From: Streptomyces europaeiscabiei
GTDB taxonomy: Bacteria; Actinomycetota; Actinomycetes; Streptomycetales; Streptomycetaceae
NCBI RefSeq assembly: GCF_036346855.1
Contig: NZ_CP107841.1
Location: 5,522,001-5,586,000 of the forward strand
Direction of reading: 5' to 3'
DNA: 64,000 nucleotides
Below the pieces are notes generated by a model. That model worked only from the letters and a program-made list of their open reading frames with translations. It did not search any database and was not told where the DNA came from. Position 1 is the stretch's first letter. Every line of letters starts with the position of its first letter. Shown in pieces: positions 13,752 to 31,718 of this stretch. The translations under genes were made by a program, and so were the position numbers.

Positions 13752-13815
13752 CTTGTCAATGTCGTCGTCAACCGCACCATCAGCCCTGCGCGTTCAGGGC
13801 AGCACGGAGGGCCCT

Positions 13816-14568
13816 ATGCCGCGAGAGGCCCCGTACCTCGATGTCGCGGACGATCTGCGCCGCCGGGTGAGGGCGGGCGACTGGGCCGTCGGTGAACGCC
13901 TGCCCTCCCGAGCACAGCTCGCCGAGGAGTACGGGGTGGGCCGCAATGTCACGCAACGTGCGATGGAACGCCTGATCATCGAGGGCATCCTGGAAGGCCG
14001 GGCCGGATCAGGCACCTATGTCCGAGCCGCACGTGAGCGGTTGCGCATGATCCGGTCCCGGCACCGTGAGCATCGAGGTGGTTCGCCATTCCGTGCCGAC
14101 ATGAACGAGCAGGGACGGCGCGGCACTTGGGAGTCCCACAGCCAGGCCCGCGTCCCCGCACCGGGGCACATCGCCGAGCGCCTTGCCATCGATCCGGGTG
14201 ACCCCTGCGTCGTCACCCGGTACGAATTCCTCGCTGACAGCCAGTCCGTTCAGTTGTCCGAGTCGTGGGAGCCGATGGCCGTCACCGATGGGACGCCGAT
14301 CGTCCTGCCCGAGATGGGGCCGCTCGCCGGTATGGGTGTGGTGGAGCGGATGCGTTCCATCGGGGTCGTCATCGAGACAGCCGTGGAGGTGCCGCGGCCG
14401 GGGCGGGTCACCCAGGAAGAGGCCAATCTGCTGGGTGTCAGCGTTGGTGAGCTGCTGACCCGCATCGAGCGCACCTACTACGACAGCGACGGTCGTCCCG
14501 TCGAGACGGCGGACATCACCGTGCCGGACGTGCGTTGGGAAATCGCCTACGAGATCTCGATCGAGTGA
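13816..14568 (+). CDS. GntR-family regulator with UTRA domain
   Basis: The product is 250 residues. ATG 13816 is chosen because GGAGG ends six bases upstream and the winged HTH begins shortly after (VADDLRRRVRAGDWAVGERLPS, with the typical LAEEYGV...TQRAME recognition segment). The C-terminal UTRA ligand domain runs from about residue 90 to the end. It belongs to the HutC/KorSA-like branch common on actinomycete mobile elements. Together with the divergent small-protein operon and shared operator repeats it looks like an autoregulated accessory module. Confidence 0.88.
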   Translation: MPREAPYLDVADDLRRRVRAGDWAVGERLPSRAQLAEEYGVGRNVTQRAMERLIIEGILEGRAGSGTYVRAARERLRMIRSRHREHRGGSPFRADMNEQGRRGTWESHSQARVPAPGHIAERLAIDPGDPCVVTRYEFLADSQSVQLSESWEPMAVTDGTPIVLPEMGPLAGMGVVERMRSIGVVIETAVEVPRPGRVTQEEANLLGVSVGELLTRIERTYYDSDGRPVETADITVPDVRWEIAYEISIE

Positions 14569-16440: not shown

Positions 16441-16675
16441 ACGACCAGCTCATTTCGGTTTGTCCGCGGTGGTGATGGCGAGGGTGGAGCCACAGCGGGA
16501 ACACGGCTCGCCGTTCGGCCTCCGACCGGTGGGGACGGGCGCCGGGGCGGCCGCGCAGCTTGCGGCCCGCGGCCAGGTCCAGGCGCCGCCCGGCGGCCAG
16601 GTCCAGGCGCCGCCCGGGGGAGGACACCGGTGCCACCAGGCTCGGAGCACGCCGGGAAAAATCTTTCCGGATCCC

Positions 16676-16702
16676 TGTCACATGTCCGTGGGCCCATCCG
16701 TC
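16676..16702 (+). promoter_or_regulatory. ECF41-type promoter of the CMD gene
   Basis: TGTCACA (16676-16682), a 16-base spacer and CGTC (16699-16702), 46 bases before the ATG of the CMD gene. It is identical in both boxes and spacing to 966-992. Confidence 0.82.
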
Positions 16703-16747
16703 AATGCTGCGAAGACGCCGACCAGGCCGATGCGAAGGAGAGCAGCC

Positions 16748-17236
16748 ATGACGAACACCTCCATCTCCCGGATGCCCAACCCGGCCGAGTTCGTGCCCGA
16801 ACTGAACGACATCAGCGCGGCCCTCTTCAGGGCCACGGGCAACCGCTCGGTGCCGCGTACCACGATGAGCCTCGTCCACCTGCGCGCCGGGCAGATCGTC
16901 GGCAACACCTACCTGACCATCCTCAACACCGGCTTCCTGCGCAAGGCCGGGGAGTCCGAGGAGCGCATCACCGCGGTCTCCTCCTGGCAGGACGCCCCCT
17001 ACTTCACCGACGCCGAGCGCGCCGCCCTCGCCTTGCTGGAGGCCACCCTCCAGCCCGCCCCGCACGGCAGGGAGCGCGTCTCCGACGAACTGTACGCAGA
17101 GGTGGCGAAGCACTACGACGAGAAGGCACTGGCCACCCTCACCATCGCGATCGGCCAGATCAACTTCTTCATCGCCCTGGCCGTCATCGGCAAGCCGCAG
17201 CCGGTCGGCTCCCTCGCGGACGAGCAGTGGGACTGA
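16748..17236 (+). CDS. CMD-family protein lacking the CXXC motif
   Basis: The product is 162 residues with the CMD/AhpD helical pattern. Where active relatives carry CXXCXXXH, this protein reads LRAGQIVGNTYLTILN, so both cysteines and the His are replaced (Asn53, Leu56, Asn60 by alignment with the gene at 1033). Peroxidase or thiol chemistry is therefore unlikely; ligand binding or another reaction is possible. ATG 16748 has AAGGAG at 16735-16740. It follows the ECF41 sigma gene, has a matching promoter and a strong terminator. Partner genes of ECF41 factors are often CMD proteins. Confidence 0.88.
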   Translation: MTNTSISRMPNPAEFVPELNDISAALFRATGNRSVPRTTMSLVHLRAGQIVGNTYLTILNTGFLRKAGESEERITAVSSWQDAPYFTDAERAALALLEATLQPAPHGRERVSDELYAEVAKHYDEKALATLTIAIGQINFFIALAVIGKPQPVGSLADEQWD

Positions 17237-17710: not shown

Positions 17711-20011
17711 TCAGGCGGTCGTCAGGATGACCAGTCGCTGTGTCGCCCGCGTCATCGCCACGTAGTGGTCCACGGCTCCCTCGATGCCCTCGCCGAAGTC
17801 CTCCGGGTCGATCAGGACCACGAGGTCGAATTCGAGGCCCTTCGACAGCTCGGGGGTCAGGGAGCGGACCCGGGGTGCCGTACGCAGGAGCGGGCGTGAC
17901 AGGGACGTCGTACGCGAGCCCGGGGCCGCGATGACGCAGGCGATGCCGTCGGCGTTGGCGGCCAGCCAGGTGTCCAGGGTCGCGTCCAGGTCCGAGGCCG
18001 GGCCGTGTACGACCGGGACACCCCCGCTGCGGATCGAGGTCGGGACGTTCGCGTCCGGAAGCACGGCGCGGATCACCGGTTCGGCCTCCGTCATGATCTC
18101 CTCCGGCGTCCGGTAGTTGATGGTCAGGGAGGCCAGGTTGATGCGGTCGAGGCCCACGCGCTTCAGGCGTTCCTGCCAGGACTCCGTGAAGCCGTGCCGG
18201 GCCTGGGCGCGGTCGCCGACGATCGTGAAGCTCCGGGACGGGCAGCGCTGCAACAGCATCTGCCACTCCGCGTCCGTCAGCTCCTGCGCCTCGTCCACGA
18301 CGATGTGGGCGAACGGGCCGACGAGCAGGTCGGGGTCGGCGGTGACGAGTTCGGAGTCGTCGACCAGGCTGACCTGGGCGTCCTCGCCGCGGAGCATGTT
18401 CACCAGGCCGATACCCTCGTCCCCGTCGGCGCCGGAGTTGGCCACGGCATCGATCAGGTTGTCGACGACCTGGGTCATGCGCTCACGCTGGGCGGCGAGG
18501 GTGGCCGCGTGCCGGCGCTTGCGGCGGGCCGTCTCGGGGTCGCCGAGGCGTTGGCGGGCCGCGTCCAGGAGGGGGAGGTCGGACGTCGTCCAGGCCTGGG
18601 GCTCGTCGCGCTGGAGGCGCTGTACTTCCTCGCGGTTCAGCCAGGGCGCGCACATGCGGAGGTACGCCGGTACCGACCACAGGTCCCCGACCAGGTCCGC
18701 CGCCTCCAGGAGGGGCCAGGCACGGTTGAAGGTCGTGACCAGGTCCCTGTTCTGGAGGAGGGACCTGCGCAGAAGAGCGGGGGAGGGGGAGGCGGCGGTG
18801 TCCGGGTCGGGGTCGGGGTCGGCTTCGGCGTCGTGTTTGTCCGTCAGGATCGTCAGGAGTTCCTCCCAGACCTGGTGACGGGCCTCGTTGTGCGGGGTGC
18901 CGGGTTCCGCCGCGTCGAAGGCCGCGGTCCAGTCCTCGGGGCTCAGCCAGATGTCGGACCAGGGGGTCGTGACCGTCATGCCCTTGGCGGGGGGTTCCTC
19001 GTAGAAGCGGACGGCCTTCTCGATCGAGCCCACCAGAGCCGCCGACGACTTCAGGCGCGCCACCTCCGGGTCGCTCTCCGTACCGGCCGCCGCCCCCTCC
19101 GCGACCAGGTCGCGCAGGATGCACGTCTGTACGCCCTCCTCGCCGAGGCTCGGGAGCACGTCGGCGACGTAGGAGAGGTACGGGCGGTGCGGGCCCACGA
19201 AGAGGACGCCGCCCCGGCGGTGCCCCAGACGGGGGTCGGAGTGGAGAAGGTACGCGGAGCGGTGGAGGGCCACGACGGTCTTGCCGGTGCCGGGCCCGCC
19301 GTCCACGACCAGGGCGCCGCGGGAGCCTGCGCGGATGATGGCGTCCTGGTCGGCCTGGATGGTGCCGAGGACGTCCCGCATGCGCTCCGACCTGTTGGTG
19401 CCCAGGCTGGCGATGAACGCGGACTGGTCGTCGAGGGAAGCGGCGTGGTGGTCGGTGAGCCCGTCCAGTTCGTCCCGGGAGAAGACCTCGTCCCAGTAGT
19501 CGCTGATACGGCCGTTGGTCCAGCGGTAGCGGCGGCGGCTCGTCAGGCCCATCGGGTTGGCGTGGGTCGCGCCGAAGAACGGCTCGGCCGCCGGGGACCG
19601 CCAGTCGATCAGCAGGCGCCGGCCGGTGGCGCTGTCCGTGAGGCCCAGGCGGCCGATGTAGACGGGGTCGGTGTCGTCCGGGCTCACCATGTGGCCGAGG
19701 CACAGGTCCAGGCCGAAGCGGCGCAGGGTGCGCAGGCGGGAGGTCAGGCGGTGGACCTCCGTGTCCCGGTCCATCGCCTGCCGGCCCATGCCGCCGGGGG
19801 CCCTGCGTGCGGCGTCGAGCTGGGCGGACACCTCGGCGATGGACTGTGCGAGGCACGCGGCGAGCGCCGCGAAGTACCGCTCGTCGGCGGCGATCAGGGC
19901 CGGGGCGGCCTTGGCGGAGAGGCGGTCGGGGAGGTCGAACGCGCTGGGGGTGGTCGGGGGGGTCACTTCATTCGCTCCGAACGCTCCGAATGTGAGGTCG
20001 TTTACGACCAT
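17711..20011 (-). CDS. helR: HelD-type helicase-like RNA polymerase-associated protein, HelR candidate
   Basis: The product is 766 residues with superfamily 1 (UvrD/HelD) organisation: an N-terminal arm of coiled helices (about 25-100), Walker A GGPGTGKT near residue 240, Walker B VVDEAQELTD and the C-terminal VAMTRATQRLVIL motif, with an inserted variable segment rich in Asp/Pro between them. Actinobacterial HelD proteins dissociate or rescue stalled RNA polymerase, and HelR members displace rifamycins from it. The gene follows a glycosyltransferase on the same strand, with a rifamycin-associated-element-like site upstream of that gene, which supports the HelR reading. No separate element is visible in the 168-base gap before this gene. 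HelD family is near certain; HelR function is inferred. Confidence 0.85.
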   Translation of the reverse strand: MVVNDLTFGAFGANEVTPPTTPSAFDLPDRLSAKAAPALIAADERYFAALAACLAQSIAEVSAQLDAARRAPGGMGRQAMDRDTEVHRLTSRLRTLRRFGLDLCLGHMVSPDDTDPVYIGRLGLTDSATGRRLLIDWRSPAAEPFFGATHANPMGLTSRRRYRWTNGRISDYWDEVFSRDELDGLTDHHAASLDDQSAFIASLGTNRSERMRDVLGTIQADQDAIIRAGSRGALVVDGGPGTGKTVVALHRSAYLLHSDPRLGHRRGGVLFVGPHRPYLSYVADVLPSLGEEGVQTCILRDLVAEGAAAGTESDPEVARLKSSAALVGSIEKAVRFYEEPPAKGMTVTTPWSDIWLSPEDWTAAFDAAEPGTPHNEARHQVWEELLTILTDKHDAEADPDPDPDTAASPSPALLRRSLLQNRDLVTTFNRAWPLLEAADLVGDLWSVPAYLRMCAPWLNREEVQRLQRDEPQAWTTSDLPLLDAARQRLGDPETARRKRRHAATLAAQRERMTQVVDNLIDAVANSGADGDEGIGLVNMLRGEDAQVSLVDDSELVTADPDLLVGPFAHIVVDEAQELTDAEWQMLLQRCPSRSFTIVGDRAQARHGFTESWQERLKRVGLDRINLASLTINYRTPEEIMTEAEPVIRAVLPDANVPTSIRSGGVPVVHGPASDLDATLDTWLAANADGIACVIAAPGSRTTSLSRPLLRTAPRVRSLTPELSKGLEFDLVVLIDPEDFGEGIEGAVDHYVAMTRATQRLVILTTA

Positions 20012-20179
20012 GGGCCCTTCTGGGTGTCCTACTGGGTTCTGCTGAGTCCTACTGGGTCTGGGTGTCCGGCTGGGTGTCCTGCCGGATGGTCCCGCTCGAC
20101 GGGGCTGGTCGAAGCATCCCGGATGGGTCGACGGACCTGGATGGGCCGGCGGACCTGGATGACGGGTCTGCCCGATCGG

Positions 20180-21670
20180 TCAGCTGCGAACGATGGTGTC
20201 AAGGAGCAGTTTCGCCGCCACCGCCGCCCCGTCCGTGTGGACCATCTGGGCGACGGCGGCCGCCCGTACCCGCGTCTCGGGGGCCAAGGCCACCTCCAGC
20301 GCCGCAGACAGGGACTCGAACGTCGGGGTCGGGCCGTCGTGCGCCGCGCCGATACCGAGCGCGGCGACCCGGCTCGCGAAGTACGGCTGGTCCGCACCCT
20401 GGGGTACCACCACCTGGGGCGCGCCCGCCCAGGTCGCCGTGGTCGTCGTGCCCGAGCCACCGTGGTGGATGACGGCGGCGACCCGGCGGAACAGTACGTG
20501 ATGGTTGGTTTCGCCGACGACGAAGCAGTCGTCCCGGTCGTCGACGAGGGCCAGCCCGGCCCAGCCCCGGGAGACGATCGCGCGGCGCCCCTGCGCACGG
20601 ACGGCCTCGATGGATGCCCAGGCGACGTCCTCGGAGCCGCCCATGGTGATGCTGCCGAAGCCGACGTACACGGGCGGCGCGCCGGCGTCCAGGAACGCCG
20701 TCAGCTCGGGCGGGAGCGGACGCTCGTCGGGAACGATCCACGTGCCGGTCTGTACGACGCCGGCCTCGGAGGGTTCCGGCCGTGGGTTCGAGGTGGTGCC
20801 GGAGGGTTCCGGCCGTGGGTTCGAGGTGGTGCCGGAGGGTTCCGTGCGCGGGTTCGAGGTGGTGCCGGAGGGTTCCGTGCGCGGGTTCGAGGTGGTGCCG
20901 GAGGGTTCCGACCGCAGGTCCGAGGTGGAGCCGGAAGGTCCCGACCGCAGGTCCGAGGTGGAGCCGGAAGGTCCCGACCGCAGGTCCGACAGAGGAGCCG
21001 ACACGGGATCCGACGGCTCCTGCCCTGGGTCCCACGGGTCCCACGGTTCCCACGGGTCCAGGACCGGATCCGTCGCCAGCCACGGGCGGTCGGTGAAGAC
21101 GTGGTCGCGCACGTCCTCCACCGGCGGCAGACCGACCGACGCCCGGTGGGCATTGATCACCTCACGGAACAGGTCGTTCGCGCTCTGCGCGTCCAGATCC
21201 CACAGCGCGCGGTTGTCGGTCACGTCCGGCGGCAACGGCTTGCCCGGCCGCTGCATCGGCGGGTGGTGCGGCGACGGCAGGGAGACGGACTGGAAGCTCG
21301 CGTACACGTACGGGATGTCCAGCTTGTCGGCCACCGACCGTACGCAGGCCGCGGCCGGGAGCAGGCCGGTCGCCACCAGCACGTCGCAGCCCTCGGCCGC
21401 CTCGGCGACCGTGTCGAACCGGGCGAGCAGTTCGGCCGCGCGCCGGGGCACACCGCACGCCGTCGGCGGCGTCGCCGCGGTCATCAGCGCACGCACCGAC
21501 CGGCCGAACGGCACCAGCGGTACGCCCACACCGGCCAGCCGCCGCGCGAACTCCCCGTCCGGAGGTGCGCATACCCGCACCTCCGCGCCGAGTCCACGCA
21601 GCCTGACCGCGAGCCCCAGCAGTGGTTCGAGGCCCCCACGCGAGTCGTAGTTCGCCAGCAGCACACGCAT
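20180..21670 (-). CDS. rgt: GT1-type (GT-B fold) glycosyltransferase, rifampin glycosyltransferase candidate
   Basis: The product is 496 residues, about 80-100 longer than usual. The N-terminal acceptor domain opens with MRVLLANYDSRGGLEPLLGL, and the C-terminal nucleotide-sugar domain carries YVGFGSI and the donor-binding motif HHGGSGTTTTATWAGAPQ. Antibiotic glycosyltransferases, including those that glycosylate rifamycins, have this form. Between the domains (about residues 205-303) sits a WEPWDPWDPG stretch and seven 11-residue repeats encoded by a 33-bp minisatellite. A near-consensus rifamycin-associated element lies 57 bases upstream and a HelR-like gene follows. Specificity for rifamycins is inferred from that context only. 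Confidence 0.82.
   Translation of the reverse strand: MRVLLANYDSRGGLEPLLGLAVRLRGLGAEVRVCAPPDGEFARRLAGVGVPLVPFGRSVRALMTAATPPTACGVPRRAAELLARFDTVAEAAEGCDVLVATGLLPAAACVRSVADKLDIPYVYASFQSVSLPSPHHPPMQRPGKPLPPDVTDNRALWDLDAQSANDLFREVINAHRASVGLPPVEDVRDHVFTDRPWLATDPVLDPWEPWDPWDPGQEPSDPVSAPLSDLRSGPSGSTSDLRSGPSGSTSDLRSEPSGTTSNPRTEPSGTTSNPRTEPSGTTSNPRPEPSGTTSNPRPEPSEAGVVQTGTWIVPDERPLPPELTAFLDAGAPPVYVGFGSITMGGSEDVAWASIEAVRAQGRRAIVSRGWAGLALVDDRDDCFVVGETNHHVLFRRVAAVIHHGGSGTTTTATWAGAPQVVVPQGADQPYFASRVAALGIGAAHDGPTPTFESLSAALEVALAPETRVRAAAVAQMVHTDGAAVAAKLLLDTIVRS
20765..20995 (-). repeat. 33-bp minisatellite in the glycosyltransferase linker
   Basis: Seven imperfect 33-bp units (plus strand core TTCGAGGTGGTGCCGGAGGG) encode 11-residue repeats of the type SNPRTEPSGTT and SDLRSGPSGST. 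All keep the frame. They fall between the two Rossmann domains. Confidence 0.9.
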
Positions 21671-21726
21671 TCAGGGCCCCCGGTTTCGCTCGATACTGGC
21701 CTAGGCCGGAGATTCTGCGCCACGAC

Positions 21727-21749
21727 GGGGGCCTTGCCGCAAGCCCCCC
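21727..21749 (-). promoter_or_regulatory. rifamycin-associated element (RAE)-like palindrome
   Basis: Read on the minus strand it is GGGGCTTGCGGCAAG-G-CCCC. The published RAE, as I recall it, is GGGGCTTGCGGCAAGCCCC, so this site matches with one inserted G and has further G/C extension at both ends. It lies 57 bases upstream of the glycosyltransferase. RAEs mark rifamycin-inducible resistance genes such as rgt, rph and helR in actinomycetes. Confidence 0.75.
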
Positions 21750-21770
21750 GGTGCGCTATACGTTGAGAGT

Positions 21771-21796
21771 GGCAAGGAGTGGGAAATCTCCTTGCC
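21771..21796. promoter_or_regulatory. inverted repeat next to the RAE-like site
   Basis: GGCAAGGAG / CTCCTTGCC with an 8-nt loop, followed on the plus strand by a T-rich stretch. It could be a terminator, but no plus-strand gene ends here; a second protein-binding site for the glycosyltransferase promoter is equally possible. Confidence 0.45.
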
Positions 21797-21953
21797 TTTG
21801 TTCTTTGCCCCCGCCTTCGTTTGTTCGCTCATCGGAGGACGGCCCGCTGTCAGGTACCAGGTCCGCCCAGGTCCGCCCAGGTCCGCCGCACACTCCGACC
21901 AGGACACCGCCACCGGCTGGAACACGGCTGCGGCGGAGTCACCCCTGCGGGGC

Positions 21954-22737: not shown

Positions 22738-23051
22738 GCAGGGCCGCCCGCCGTTCACAAACTCGGATGAACGCCTGCTCGTGATGTGAAATCCGATCCC
22801 TTCGCGGCCTCGTGGCAGTCCGGAATCCGCCAGCCAGAAGCCGTCTGATCAGCTGCGATGCTCATGCTCCCTCATGCTCGACACTGCCCCCGCTCCGTCA
22901 TTCATGGTTCATCCATGTGAACACAACCCACGTACCGATCTATTGACGTGTTCAGGCCACCCTCCGACACTCATGAGGGGAAAGCGCTTTCTGATCCGAG
23001 TGAACCTGAATGAACCCGAATGAATCGGCCAACCCGTCCAGGAGATCAACG
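22738..23051. other. promoter region of the PL9 gene
   Basis: There is no gene in this 314-base gap. It is AT-richer than its neighbours, contains TTGACG at about 22943 as a possible -35 box, and includes the operator-like palindrome at 22980-22991. Confidence 0.5.
22980..22991. promoter_or_regulatory. LacI-family operator-like palindrome
   Basis: GAAAGCGCTTTC is a perfect 12-bp palindrome with the central CG typical of LacI/cre-type operators. It lies about 60 bases before the start of the secreted lyase gene. The regulator is not encoded next to it. Confidence 0.6.
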
Positions 23052-24629
23052 ATGCAAAAGACGCACGTGAGACCCGTCATGGCGACGGCGAGCGCAGGTC
23101 TGGTGGCAGGCCTGCTGGTCGCGTCGTCCGGTACGGCGGCGCAGGCCGCGACCGCGCGGTACGAGGCCGAGACGTCGCCGGCCGTCTGCACCGGCACGAT
23201 CGACTCCGACTGGACCGGATACTCGGGCAGCGGATTCTGCAACGGCACCAACGCCGCAGGCGCGTACGCGCAGTTCACCGTGACCGCACCCGCATCGGGC
23301 ACGGCGACACTGTCCGTACGGTTCGCCAACGGCACCACCGCGGCACGGGCCGCGAGCGTCGCGGTGAACGGTACGACCGCCGCCACCACGTCGTTCGAGA
23401 GCACCGGCACATGGACGGGGTGGACCACCAAGACGCTGACCGTGCCCGTGACGTCGGGCAGCAACGTCATCCGGATCAACCCCACCGTCGCCACCGGGCT
23501 GCCCAACATCGACCGCCTCGACGCCGACGTGCCCGACGGCACCACCACCCCACCGCCGACCGCCTCCGCGCTGTACGTCTCGCCGAGCGGGACGGACGGA
23601 GCCGCCGGAACGATCTCGAACCCCACCACCCTCACCTCGGCGATCAGCCGGATCACCGCCGGCGGGACCATCTACCTGCGCGGCGGGACGTACGCCCACT
23701 CGTCCACCGTCACCATCCCGGCCGGCAGCTCGGGTACCGCCGCCGCCCGTACGAAGCTGTCGGCCTACCCGGGCGAGACGCCGGTCCTCAACTTCTCCGC
23801 GCAGAGCGAGAGTTCATCGAACCGCGGACTTCAGATCAACGGCTCCTACTGGCATGTCTTCGGGCTCGTCGTCGAGCGCGCCGGGGACAACGGGATCTAC
23901 GTCGGCGGCAGCGACAACGTCATCGAGCGGACCGTGACGCGGTTCAACCGGGACACGGGGCTGCAGTTGGGGCGGATGGCCTCCACCACTCCCGCTGCCG
24001 ACTGGCCGTCGGACAACCTCGTCCTGAGCGCCGAGTCGCACGACAACGCCGACTCCGACGGGGAGGACGCGGACGGGTTCGCGGCGAAGCTCACCACCGG
24101 GACCGGGAACGTCTTCCGGTACGCCGTGGCCCACAACAACATCGACGACGGCTGGGACCTCTACACCAAGACGGACACCGGGCCCATCGGACCGGTGACC
24201 GTCGAGGACTCGCTCGCCTACGAGAACGGCACACTCAGCGACGGCTCGCAGGCCGGGAACGGCGACCGCAACGGCTACAAACTCGGCGGCGACGACATCT
24301 CCGTGAACCACGTCGTCCGGCGCAGCATCGCCTACGACAACGGCAAGCACGGTTTCACGTGGAACAGCAACCCGGGCTCCATGGCGGTCTCCGGGAACGT
24401 GAGCATCGACAACACCGAGCGGAACTTCAACTTCGACGGCGGTACGTCGGTGTTCCGAGACAACACGTCGTGCCGCAGCGGCAGCGGTACGAACGACCGG
24501 ATCATCGGCAGCTCCGACAGCTCCAACCAGTTCTGGTCCGGGGCGAACGGCTCCCGCTGCTCCTCGTACTCCGGCGGCCTGCACTGGTCCTTCGGCAGCG
24601 ACGGCGGCCTTGACGTCACCTTCGGGTGA
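23052..24629 (+). CDS. secreted CBM35 - PL9 family polysaccharide lyase
   Basis: The product is 525 residues: signal peptide (1-33, AAQAATA cleavage region), a CBM35-type beta-sandwich (about 34-165, beginning RYEAETSP), a short Thr/Pro linker, then a right-handed parallel beta-helix of the PL9 type. Features of PL9 include LYVSPSGTDGAAG at the start of the helix and the Asp-rich NADSDGEDADGFAAK and NNIDDGWDLYTK segments that bind calcium and hold the catalytic Lys. It should cleave pectate or a related uronic-acid polysaccharide outside the cell. ATG 23052 has GGAG seven bases upstream. A LacI-type operator precedes it and a terminator follows. Confidence 0.9.
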   Translation: MQKTHVRPVMATASAGLVAGLLVASSGTAAQAATARYEAETSPAVCTGTIDSDWTGYSGSGFCNGTNAAGAYAQFTVTAPASGTATLSVRFANGTTAARAASVAVNGTTAATTSFESTGTWTGWTTKTLTVPVTSGSNVIRINPTVATGLPNIDRLDADVPDGTTTPPPTASALYVSPSGTDGAAGTISNPTTLTSAISRITAGGTIYLRGGTYAHSSTVTIPAGSSGTAAARTKLSAYPGETPVLNFSAQSESSSNRGLQINGSYWHVFGLVVERAGDNGIYVGGSDNVIERTVTRFNRDTGLQLGRMASTTPAADWPSDNLVLSAESHDNADSDGEDADGFAAKLTTGTGNVFRYAVAHNNIDDGWDLYTKTDTGPIGPVTVEDSLAYENGTLSDGSQAGNGDRNGYKLGGDDISVNHVVRRSIAYDNGKHGFTWNSNPGSMAVSGNVSIDNTERNFNFDGGTSVFRDNTSCRSGSGTNDRIIGSSDSSNQFWSGANGSRCSSYSGGLHWSFGSDGGLDVTFG

Positions 24630-28997: not shown

Positions 28998-31718
28998 ATG
29001 ACGGTGCGTTCGCATTCCGTGGGAGAACAGCCTCCGTCCTCGGGTGACGACTGGTACGCACAGGCTCCCGAGGAGGTCGTAGCGGCGTTCGGTGTCGATC
29101 CGCCGGTCGGTCTCTCCGCGGCACGGGCCACGCAGCTGCTGACCGCGCACGGCCCGAACTCGCTGCCCGAGGAGAAGCGGCCTGCGGCCTGGCGCCGGTC
29201 CCTCGCGCAGTACCGCAGTTACATGCAGATCGTCCTCGTGGCCGCGGCGGTCGTCTCGCTGCTCATCAAGGAGTGGACCACTGCGGTCCTGCTGATCGTC
29301 CTGACCCTGCTGAACGCGGTCGTGGGCCTGCGCCAGGAGGGCAAGGCCGAGAGCGCGATGAACGCGCTGCAATCGATGATGAAGGCGACGGCACGGGTAC
29401 GCAGGGACGGCACGGAGGCCGAGATCCCCGCCGAACAGCTCGTCGTCGGCGACATAGTGCTCATCACCGCCGGGGACCAGGTGGCGGCGGACGGACGCAT
29501 CATCGAGGCCAGTGCCCTGCAGATCGACGAGTCGGCACTCACCGGCGAGAGCGTCCCGGCCGCGAAGAACGCCGGCACACTCCCTGGCCCCCTGCCGGCC
29601 CCCGGCGACCGGACGAACATGGCCTTCATGAACACCCCGGTCACCCACGGCAGCGGCGTGCTCGTCGTCACCGCGACCGGCGCCGCAACTGAGGTCGGCA
29701 AGATCTCCGGGATGCTGTCGGCCACCGAGAAAGAGGTACCGCCACTCACCAGGGAACTCGACACCCTGACGCTGTGGATCACCGGGGCGGCGGCTCTGAC
29801 CATGATCGTGATGTTCGCCCTGGGACGCGGGCGGGACCAGGCCTGGGACGTCCTGTTCGTCAGCGCGGTCTCGCTGGCCATCGCCGCCATCCCCGAGGCC
29901 CTGCCGACCGTGACCCAGGCGATCCTCTCCGTCGGCAGCCTCAACCTGGCGAAGCGGAACGCCATCGTCAAGGAACTCCCGTCCGTCGAGACCCTGGCGT
30001 TCACGTCGGCGATCAACTCGGACAAGACCGGCACCCTGACCATGAACCAGATGACCGCCGTCGAAGTCGTGAGTCCCACCGACCGGTACACCGTCTCGGG
30101 CACCGGCTACGGGCTCGACGGGAAGATCCACCATGCCGCGGGGGCCTCCGCAGGCATCGAAGACGCGATCCTGCCGTACGTGGTGGCCAGCGACGCGAAG
30201 CTGGTGGACGGCGAGGTGGTGGGCGATCCCACCGAGGGCGCGCTGCTGGTGCTCGCGCACAAGGCCGGGCTGGACATCGACGCCACCAGGGAGGGACTTC
30301 CCCGGCTCGCCACGCTGCCGTTCGACCCGGACTACAAGCTCATGGCCACCTTCAACCAAGCGGTCGACGCCTCCGGGCAGCAGATCGTCCGGTGCTTCGT
30401 CAAAGGCGCGGTCCCGGCAGTGACGGCGCGGGCCGCCACCGCGCTCGCGGCCGGCGCGACCATCCCGTGGGACGCCGAGCTGAACGCGCGCGCCGACGCG
30501 CAGACCGAGCGGATGGGCGGCGAGGGACGCCGGGTGATGGCCGCGGCCACCCGTGATCTGGACCCCGCCGGCTTCGATCCGGACGGCGACCTCCTCGCCT
30601 ACATCACCGAGCTGCGGATGACCAGCCTCGTCGGCATGGTCGATCCGCCCCGAGAAGACGCCAAGGCAGCCGTGGCCGGCGCGCAGGCGGGGCACATCCG
30701 AGTCCGCATGGTGACCGGTGACGACGTCACCACCGGCGCGGCGATCGCCCGGCAGCTCGGCATCCCCGGCGACGCGGTCCTCGGCGCCGACTTCGCCGCC
30801 ATGAGCGAGGACGAGCAGCTCGCCCGCATCGACGGCATCGGGGTGGTGGGCCGCGTCGCACCGGAGCACAAAGTACTGCTCGCCGACACGCTCAAGAAGA
30901 AGGGCGATGTCGTGGCGATGACCGGGGACGGTGTCAACGACGCGCCTGCCATCAAAGCCGCCGACATCGGTATCGCCATGGGCAGCGGCACGGATGTGGC
31001 GAAGAACGCCGGACGCATGATCCTCTCCGACGACCGCTTCGCCACCATCGTCTACGCCGTGGAGCAGGGCCGGCGAATCTACGACAACCTGACCAAGTAC
31101 ATCCGGTTCGTCCTGCTCCTGCTCGTCACCTTCGTGCTGACCTTTCTCGGGGCCACCGTCTTCAACATCGCCGCCGGTGAGCCGTTCACCCCGCCGCAGG
31201 TGCTGTGGATCCACTTCGTCGTCAACGCCTCCTTCGGCTTCGCGCTCGGTTTCGACCGGGAGAGCCCCGGGCTCATGCGACGCAGGCCGCGTCCGCGAGG
31301 GGAGTCCGTGCTCACCCGGCCCGTACTGGTCACGGTCGGACTCGGCGGGCTGGCGATCACCGTCGTCCTGCTCGGACTGATCAAGCTCGGTCAGACCCAC
31401 TTCGACAGTGTCGAGACCGGTCGGTCGATCGCGTTCACTGCCTTCGCCCTCTGTCTGATCGTGGCCGCGTTCGAGTGCCGCAGCGAGACGGACTCGGTGC
31501 TGACGACGTCCACCTTCGACAGCAGGCAGATGAACTGGGTGGCACTGACCCAGTTCGTACTCGCGGTCCTGGTGACCCAGATGGACGGCTTCCGCCGCAT
31601 CCTCGGAACGACCCAGATCAACGCGCGGCAGTTCGGCTGGGCGCTGCTGGCCGCCCTCGCGCTCCTGCTCCTGTGGGAACTGGGAAAGTTCCTGGCCCGT
31701 CGGTCAAGAGACACCTGA
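28998..31718 (+). CDS. P2-type cation-transporting ATPase
   Basis: The product is 906 residues, full length for the P2 (SERCA-like/PMR1-like) group. It shows an N-terminal cation-ATPase domain, LTGES in the actuator, IPEALP in helix M4, the phosphorylation motif SDKTGTLTMNQM, MVTGDDVTTG and MTGDGVNDAPA of the P domain, and about ten membrane segments, four to six of them after the P domain. IPEALP instead of the usual PEGLP places it in a bacterial side branch; calcium, magnesium or monovalent transport cannot be distinguished by sight. GGAGG precedes ATG 28998. The PPK2 gene upstream suggests shared stress or energy regulation. Confidence 0.93.
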   Translation: MTVRSHSVGEQPPSSGDDWYAQAPEEVVAAFGVDPPVGLSAARATQLLTAHGPNSLPEEKRPAAWRRSLAQYRSYMQIVLVAAAVVSLLIKEWTTAVLLIVLTLLNAVVGLRQEGKAESAMNALQSMMKATARVRRDGTEAEIPAEQLVVGDIVLITAGDQVAADGRIIEASALQIDESALTGESVPAAKNAGTLPGPLPAPGDRTNMAFMNTPVTHGSGVLVVTATGAATEVGKISGMLSATEKEVPPLTRELDTLTLWITGAAALTMIVMFALGRGRDQAWDVLFVSAVSLAIAAIPEALPTVTQAILSVGSLNLAKRNAIVKELPSVETLAFTSAINSDKTGTLTMNQMTAVEVVSPTDRYTVSGTGYGLDGKIHHAAGASAGIEDAILPYVVASDAKLVDGEVVGDPTEGALLVLAHKAGLDIDATREGLPRLATLPFDPDYKLMATFNQAVDASGQQIVRCFVKGAVPAVTARAATALAAGATIPWDAELNARADAQTERMGGEGRRVMAAATRDLDPAGFDPDGDLLAYITELRMTSLVGMVDPPREDAKAAVAGAQAGHIRVRMVTGDDVTTGAAIARQLGIPGDAVLGADFAAMSEDEQLARIDGIGVVGRVAPEHKVLLADTLKKKGDVVAMTGDGVNDAPAIKAADIGIAMGSGTDVAKNAGRMILSDDRFATIVYAVEQGRRIYDNLTKYIRFVLLLLVTFVLTFLGATVFNIAAGEPFTPPQVLWIHFVVNASFGFALGFDRESPGLMRRRPRPRGESVLTRPVLVTVGLGGLAITVVLLGLIKLGQTHFDSVETGRSIAFTAFALCLIVAAFECRSETDSVLTTSTFDSRQMNWVALTQFVLAVLVTQMDGFRRILGTTQINARQFGWALLAALALLLLWELGKFLARRSRDT

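Follow-up and report, generated by a model that had tools for sequence, protein, structure and literature searches.

In Streptomyces europaeiscabiei, a stretch of 64,000 nucleotides of contig NZ_CP107841.1 (assembly GCF_036346855.1, positions 5,522,001 to 5,586,000; hereafter the window) carries on its minus strand a rifamycin-associated element (RAE), followed by an open reading frame (ORF) for a glycosyltransferase, a gap of 168 bases and an ORF for a HelD-type protein. Here, we analyze this locus and especially the RAE, whose surroundings suggest a promoter-like organization on both strands. A first-pass annotation had proposed the palindrome, the glycosyltransferase and the helicase as parts of one locus. 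All three are present on the minus strand, with the RAE (21727-21749) ahead of the rgt-like gene and helR next. The features are as follows.

17711-20011, minus strand: HelR, 766 residues, Walker A at residue 238, DEAQ at residue 573 (NF041254, 1252.5 bits, cut-off 750)
20180-21670, minus strand: Rgt-like GT-B glycosyltransferase, 496 residues (NF000354, 488.8 bits, cut-off 800)
20780-21049, minus strand: repeat-rich insert of about 90 residues between the two glycosyltransferase halves, placed by alignment (33-base tandem repeat at 20767-20989)
21712-21717, minus strand: gene-facing -10-like box CAGAAT, 19 bases from its -35-like box
21727-21749, minus strand: RAE palindrome GGGGGGCTTGCGGCAAGGCCCCC, centre 21738, an exact RAE
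21734-21739, plus strand: outward -35-like box TTGCCG, placed by mirror geometry, overlapping the gene-facing -35-like box by 3 bases
21737-21742, minus strand: gene-facing -35-like box TTGCGG, placed by the mirror geometry of the arms
21759-21764, plus strand: outward -10-like box TACGTT, 19 bases from its own -35-like box
21771-21806, plus (outward) strand: intrinsic-terminator-like hairpin GGCAAGGAG-loop-CTCCTTGCC-TTTGTTCTTT with T-rich tail (mechanical scan, fold z -3.4, arm-swap test)

The first-pass annotation called the palindrome RAE-like because of one extra G. The palindrome is a real RAE, and the extra G is no defect. In a gap-free alignment of 132 RAE sites from the genus, the window included, the exact 17-base core of the window is the commonest form (80/132) and the right arm GCAAGGCC occurs in 113. 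Exact matches to GGSCTTGCSGCAAGVCC are found only twice in the 10.95-Mb genome of the strain, at the window RAE and ahead of a rifampin monooxygenase. The latter site (L151, G000 C1:524131-524147) is outside the window, has both boxes and lies 89 bases before the start codon of the monooxygenase (NF033145, 852.7 bits, cut-off 800). Across the class, the exact 19-base RAE is present in 108 of 296 genomes and 42 of 114 genera, and the pattern read backwards in one of the 296. A loose 18-base pattern allowing up to three mismatches matched the window about as often as chance predicts (2 hits, 1.53 expected) and was dropped for the exact forms; the specificity therefore resides in the exact form. 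The window site is thus a palindrome of about 19 bases ahead of rifamycin-resistance genes, as is characteristic of an RAE.

Mirrored boxes around the RAE

While the palindrome itself had been recognized, the conserved element is wider and two-sided. A block of about 100 bases around the RAE is conserved among the 132 genus sites and shows two-fold symmetry about the RAE centre. TTGCSG-N19-YANNNT can be read both ways with overlapping -35 boxes, and -10-like boxes lie at mirrored positions 21 to 26 bases from the centre. The gene-facing box reads CANNNT at 130 sites, the outward box TANNNT at 131, and 129 sites have both; boxes shifted by one to four bases give 0-2 matches. Among ten near-RAE sites of the strain's own genome that served as decoys, none carries either box, whereas both true RAEs carry both. 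The mirrored boxes thus amount to promoter-like elements on each strand, arranged around a single axis, as a bidirectional promoter would require.

This geometry is also found beyond the genus. At 90 sites outside the genus, oriented via coding signal or helD, 79 have the gene-facing CANNNT and 81 the outward TANNNT; six have TANNNT on the gene side, which looks like misorientation. Exact RAE sites of other genera, a set that overlaps the 90 sites and was oriented by the boxes themselves, show both boxes in 63 of 70 cases. The genes that follow these 70 sites are of HelR type (39), Rox (10), Arr (8), Rph (6), Rgt (5) and DrrA-type ABC (1), with one unassigned. Gene identity was checked on two proteins each for Arr (both above the curated cut-off) and Rph (Rph as best model, below the cut-off, in pieces cut by locus ends). 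In mycobacterial helR loci, the extracted DNA contains an RAE in 23 of 30 and none in the other seven; the outward box is present in 20 of the 23 and the gene-facing box in 22. Furthermore, eight stand-alone Rgt-like genes are all preceded by an RAE with the outward TANNNT, and seven of these have CANNNT.

In L274 (689-1612, minus strand), an exact RAE is followed by a gene for the ATPase of a DrrA-type ABC transporter (338 bits, cut-off 312). This candidate for rifamycin export does not follow other RAEs in the sample. In L294 (1036-1692, minus strand), the ORF chosen behind an exact RAE has no NCBIfam match; the choice of ORF may be mistaken, or the gene may be a new one under RAE control. 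Separately, TATAGC was considered as the gene-facing -10 and rejected: no -35 fits it, and TATA decays in mycobacterial relatives, where the outward TANNNT stays.

In the window, the outward TANNNT is directly followed by the hairpin at 21771-21806. It was found by a mechanical terminator scan (three terminators in the region, 0.5 expected), and only 2 of 200 shuffled sequences fold better. With a terminator defined as a hairpin of at least 7 pairs and at least 4 T in 8 positions, 82 of the 132 genus sites have one on the outward side; none has one at the mirror place, and shuffled sequences yield 51/660. Hairpins without the T criterion are frequent in shuffles as well (270/660), and hence the T-run carries this test. 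When arms were swapped between loci, the arms of the same locus paired better than swapped ones, both in the genus (z 10.4; 5.6 with distinct arms) and in other genera (z 6.8 and 5.5 with distinct arms), with no effect on the mirror side (z -1.8 and -0.5). The upstream inverted repeat was also considered as a second operator and rejected, as its loop length varies, its arms co-vary and the T-run is one-sided.

The gene pair and its two proteins

In the genus, 188 of 295 genomes encode a HelR orthologue (E <= 1e-100). Of these helR loci, 147 were read, the window's own included, and 142 have an RAE within two mismatches ahead. Four of the remaining five have too little upstream DNA, among them the cut-out of the window itself, and one (L072) has no RAE. 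A comparison of 146 loci shows an rgt-like gene between RAE and helR in 47, remnants only in five (L015, L056, L057, L083, L100; RAE retained) and neither in 94. The pair, which had been singled out as the most system-like arrangement of the window, is ordinary in the genus, and the RAE-rgt-helR order also occurs in one Rhodococcus and four Mycobacterium/Mycolicibacterium loci (L194, L207, L211, L214, L221). In a set of 80 HelD-type loci, 24 have an RAE upstream, and many of the remainder encode more distant HelD proteins. One further locus (L082) has RAE-like sites at -698 and -178 from helR and an Rgt-like gene on the opposite strand, divergent from helR and near a second RAE-like site.

A HelR tree (FastTree) requires at least 23 gains or losses of rgt, of which 17 are forced by well-supported branches, with the RAE kept. 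Some of these changes are losses, since remnants exist. In the nearest relative (G108, 95% identity), the RAE lies 130 bases before the HelR match without rgt. None of the 44 rgt-bearing loci whose RAE was recovered has an RAE within 700 bases of helR, whereas 91 of the 93 RAE-bearing loci without rgt do. This difference suggests that a single RAE serves both genes and passes to helR upon loss of rgt. In the window, the gap between the genes contains no minus-strand terminator and no strict sigma-70-like promoter detectable by scan, and its fold is no better than that of shuffled sequence. With the RAE ahead of both genes and no such signals between them, it is plausible that the rgt-like gene and helR share one transcript.

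The HelD-type protein passes the curated cut-off of the NCBIfam model motor_HelR by a wide distance (1252.5 against 750 bits) and also matches M. smegmatis HelD in the PDB. Its assignment to HelR thus stands. The PCh-loop region aligns with M. smegmatis HelD, with Glu484 and Asp485 falling on Ala and Val in a stretch of low identity, and an acidic DDGEG-like stretch is moderately kept in relatives. PADLOC matches of HelR were weak and of a general helicase kind, and were set aside.

The identity of the glycosyltransferase is less clear. Rgt (NF000354) is by far its best model (488.8 bits; next best 55.9), which places it on the Rgt side and not in a macrolide or glycolipid group, but it misses the curated cut-off of 800. 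In the genus, 107 of 295 genomes match the Rgt model at E <= 1e-100 and none exceeds the cut-off (best 708 bits); the window protein, split by its insert, is not among the 107. A tree separates the eight best-scoring Rgt-like proteins, all stand-alone, from 42 helR-linked ones by a branch with 99% support. The window protein is nearest to helR-linked proteins and belongs to their sister group of the stand-alone proteins. The closest solved structures are chains of GtfB, GtfA and GtfD, which we take to be vancomycin-type enzymes. Asp13, which aligns with the SRGD motif of GtfB and is presumably the catalytic base as in GtfA-type enzymes, is present in 47 of 48 other proteins and replaced by Gly in the window protein, L149 and L150. 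The same three proteins share a new Asp9. The literature search returned no paper on a catalytic role of Asp13. The donor-site motif HHGGSGTTT is intact, and the glycosyltransferase gene is still under purifying selection: in three pairs, its ratio of nonsynonymous to synonymous substitution rates (dN/dS) is 0.27-0.43, where HelR has 0.19-0.22. Repeat-rich inserts with different letters occur in the same linker in two close species, in the window (20767-20989) and in L149 (2919-4415, plus strand), and L150 has none.

Coupling of drug inactivation with target protection, as first proposed for this locus, retains its HelR, its Rgt-like gene and the shared RAE, but not a secure enzyme half. Inactivation by the window glycosyltransferase, and hence coupled inactivation in this strain, is unproven because the Rgt cut-off is missed, the protein belongs to the sister group, the insert is present and Asp13 is lost.

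Neighboring genes on the plus strand encode, by Pfam, a GntR/UTRA regulator (13753-14568), a carboxymuconolactone decarboxylase-like protein (16460-17236), a CBM6/beta-helix protein (23010-24629) and a P-type cation ATPase (28998-31718). None of the four looks rifamycin-related. Scans of the window for tRNAs and, at the gathering threshold, for Rfam families gave no matches.

The RAE as a proposed bidirectional promoter

With a common gene pair and an uncertain enzyme half, the locus is of value for what it reveals about the RAE, namely a symmetric, promoter-like architecture. At the level of sequence, there is a symmetric geometry, a predicted terminator on the outward side of many sites and an equal arrangement ahead of non-homologous resistance genes. 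We consider it probable, at roughly 0.6, that the RAE is a bidirectional promoter whose palindrome forms a shared, overlapping -35 region. Published work provides precedents. Bidirectional promoters are known at which polymerase can sit in only one of the two orientations at once, and strong activity in one direction can repress that in the other (PMC12825309). The helD gene of B. subtilis is held low by a stronger antisense promoter until rifampicin blocks this promoter (PMC12802891). Together with the mirrored boxes, these two reports make a two-way pair with the better -10 facing away the simplest joint reading. Mycobacterial promoter P2, mapped in M. smegmatis, fits the gene-facing arm, as its -35 overlaps the RAE (PMC10719064).

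In such a mechanism, RNA polymerase with the main sigma factor would use both arms. The outward arm, presumably having the better -10, would occupy the shared -35 without drug and yield a short dead-end RNA. A rifamycin would then tip the balance to the gene-facing arm, and in the window this arm would drive a rifamycin-inducible rgt-like-helR operon. The shift could come about by trapping of polymerase, by disappearance of the short RNA, or through a regulator that acts on the palindrome. The window HelR would be expected to remove rifamycin and stalled RNA polymerase, as other HelR proteins reportedly do. The glycosyltransferase may inactivate the drug in most relatives; the enzyme of this strain could be impaired or altered. 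In a stronger form of the proposal, the RAE would be no operator, and these back-to-back promoters would sense rifamycin without any dedicated transcription factor. The outward arm would idle on a dead-end RNA of about 40 nt until drug-bound polymerase disturbs the balance and frees the weaker arm to transcribe rgt-helR, rox, arr or rph. This stronger form appears to us possible though not likely.

Several observations weigh against the bidirectional promoter. A strict sigma-70 scan limited to spacers of 16-18 found no promoter at the RAE, and TTGCSG is a poor match to TTGACA. A clear outward terminator is missing at 50 of the 132 genus sites, and outside the genus it is found at only 19 of 90 (mirror place 2/90, shuffles 22/450). 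RNAalifold on MAFFT alignments gave no consensus structure, and kinship among the sites lowers the effective numbers. Moreover, a second promoter facing the gene has been mapped in M. smegmatis, about 20 bases upstream of the RAE (PMC10719064), which a two-way reading leaves unexplained. In B. subtilis, induction was lost when the two helD promoters were moved so near each other that they clashed (PMC12802891). Hence, simple competition for a shared -35 may be insufficient for induction, and the RAE cannot work in exactly the B. subtilis mode. A regulator or a short RNA may be involved in the RAE response.

The RAE might instead be an ordinary operator at which a transcription factor responding to rifamycins regulates the promoter that faces the gene, with the outward box and hairpin as further parts of a large operator or as by-products. 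The palindrome is indeed conserved past the -35 letters, and reviews suggest a regulator of unknown identity acting on the RAE in actinomycetes (PMC10719064, PMC12802891). Deletion of half the RAE in M. abscessus abolished helD induction, but according to the same review this also removes the -35 of P2 (PMC10719064). Other observations speak against an operator: the outer boxes resemble -10 elements at equal promoter spacing, and the outward hairpin keeps its pairing across differing loop lengths and letters, which is not operator-like. We regard an operator as a conceivable but less likely alternative.

Doubt can also be raised about the genes. The two might not be co-induced if helR had its own promoter in the gap and the RAE served rgt alone. 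A gap of 168 bases is long for a tightly coupled pair, yet it has neither a sigma-70-like site nor a minus-strand terminator, and rgt-less relatives, the nearest one included, have the RAE close before helR; we therefore consider separate control very improbable. That the window glycosyltransferase no longer inactivates rifamycins, being on its way to loss or acting on another acceptor, and that HelR alone confers resistance from this operon, is a more serious though still doubtful possibility. The replacement of Asp13 in the window protein and two close relatives points in this direction, as do the repeat insert and the frequent gain and loss of helR-linked rgt, with remnants in 5 of 146 loci and no rgt in the nearest relative. 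On the other hand, purifying selection persists, the donor-site motif is intact and the new Asp9 might substitute for the lost residue.

If the RAE is a bidirectional promoter, the question of how actinomycetes sense rifamycins becomes testable by single box changes and in vitro transcription. A bidirectional promoter would also connect the actinobacterial RAE with the paired-promoter alarm known from B. subtilis and would give five unrelated families of rifamycin resistance one common regulatory module, helping to find new members such as the candidate DrrA-type exporter. Literature searches, whose coverage leaves out most subscription papers, turned up no two-way interpretation of the RAE; as far as these searches go, the outward arm appears to be new.

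Among known systems, the locus is closest to the RAE-controlled helR genes of S. venezuelae (SVEN_6029) and M. abscessus (MAB_3189c), with which it shares a HelR-family protein above the cut-off and an RAE upstream. It differs in the Rgt-like gene between RAE and helR, and its induction is predicted from sequence. With Rgt (NF000354), the glycosyltransferase shares the best model by far and an upstream RAE, but here the protein is below the cut-off, belongs to a helR-linked sister group, has lost Asp13 and contains a repeat insert. The B. subtilis helD/pps dual-promoter rifampicin alarm (PMC12802891) resembles the proposed mechanism in placing an opposing, apparently stronger promoter beside that of a rifampicin-protection gene. 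However, the helD and pps promoters converge and both polymerases fit, whereas the RAE arms diverge with -35 boxes overlapping by 3 bases, and a shared -35 would exclude double binding of polymerase. With the bacterial bidirectional promoters of PMC12825309, the RAE shares a pseudo-symmetric sequence and, presumably, one polymerase orientation at a time. Unlike these promoters, the axis of the RAE is a palindrome that would serve as a shared -35, it is kept before five unrelated resistance families and often followed by an outward terminator-like hairpin, and its divergent RNA is predicted.
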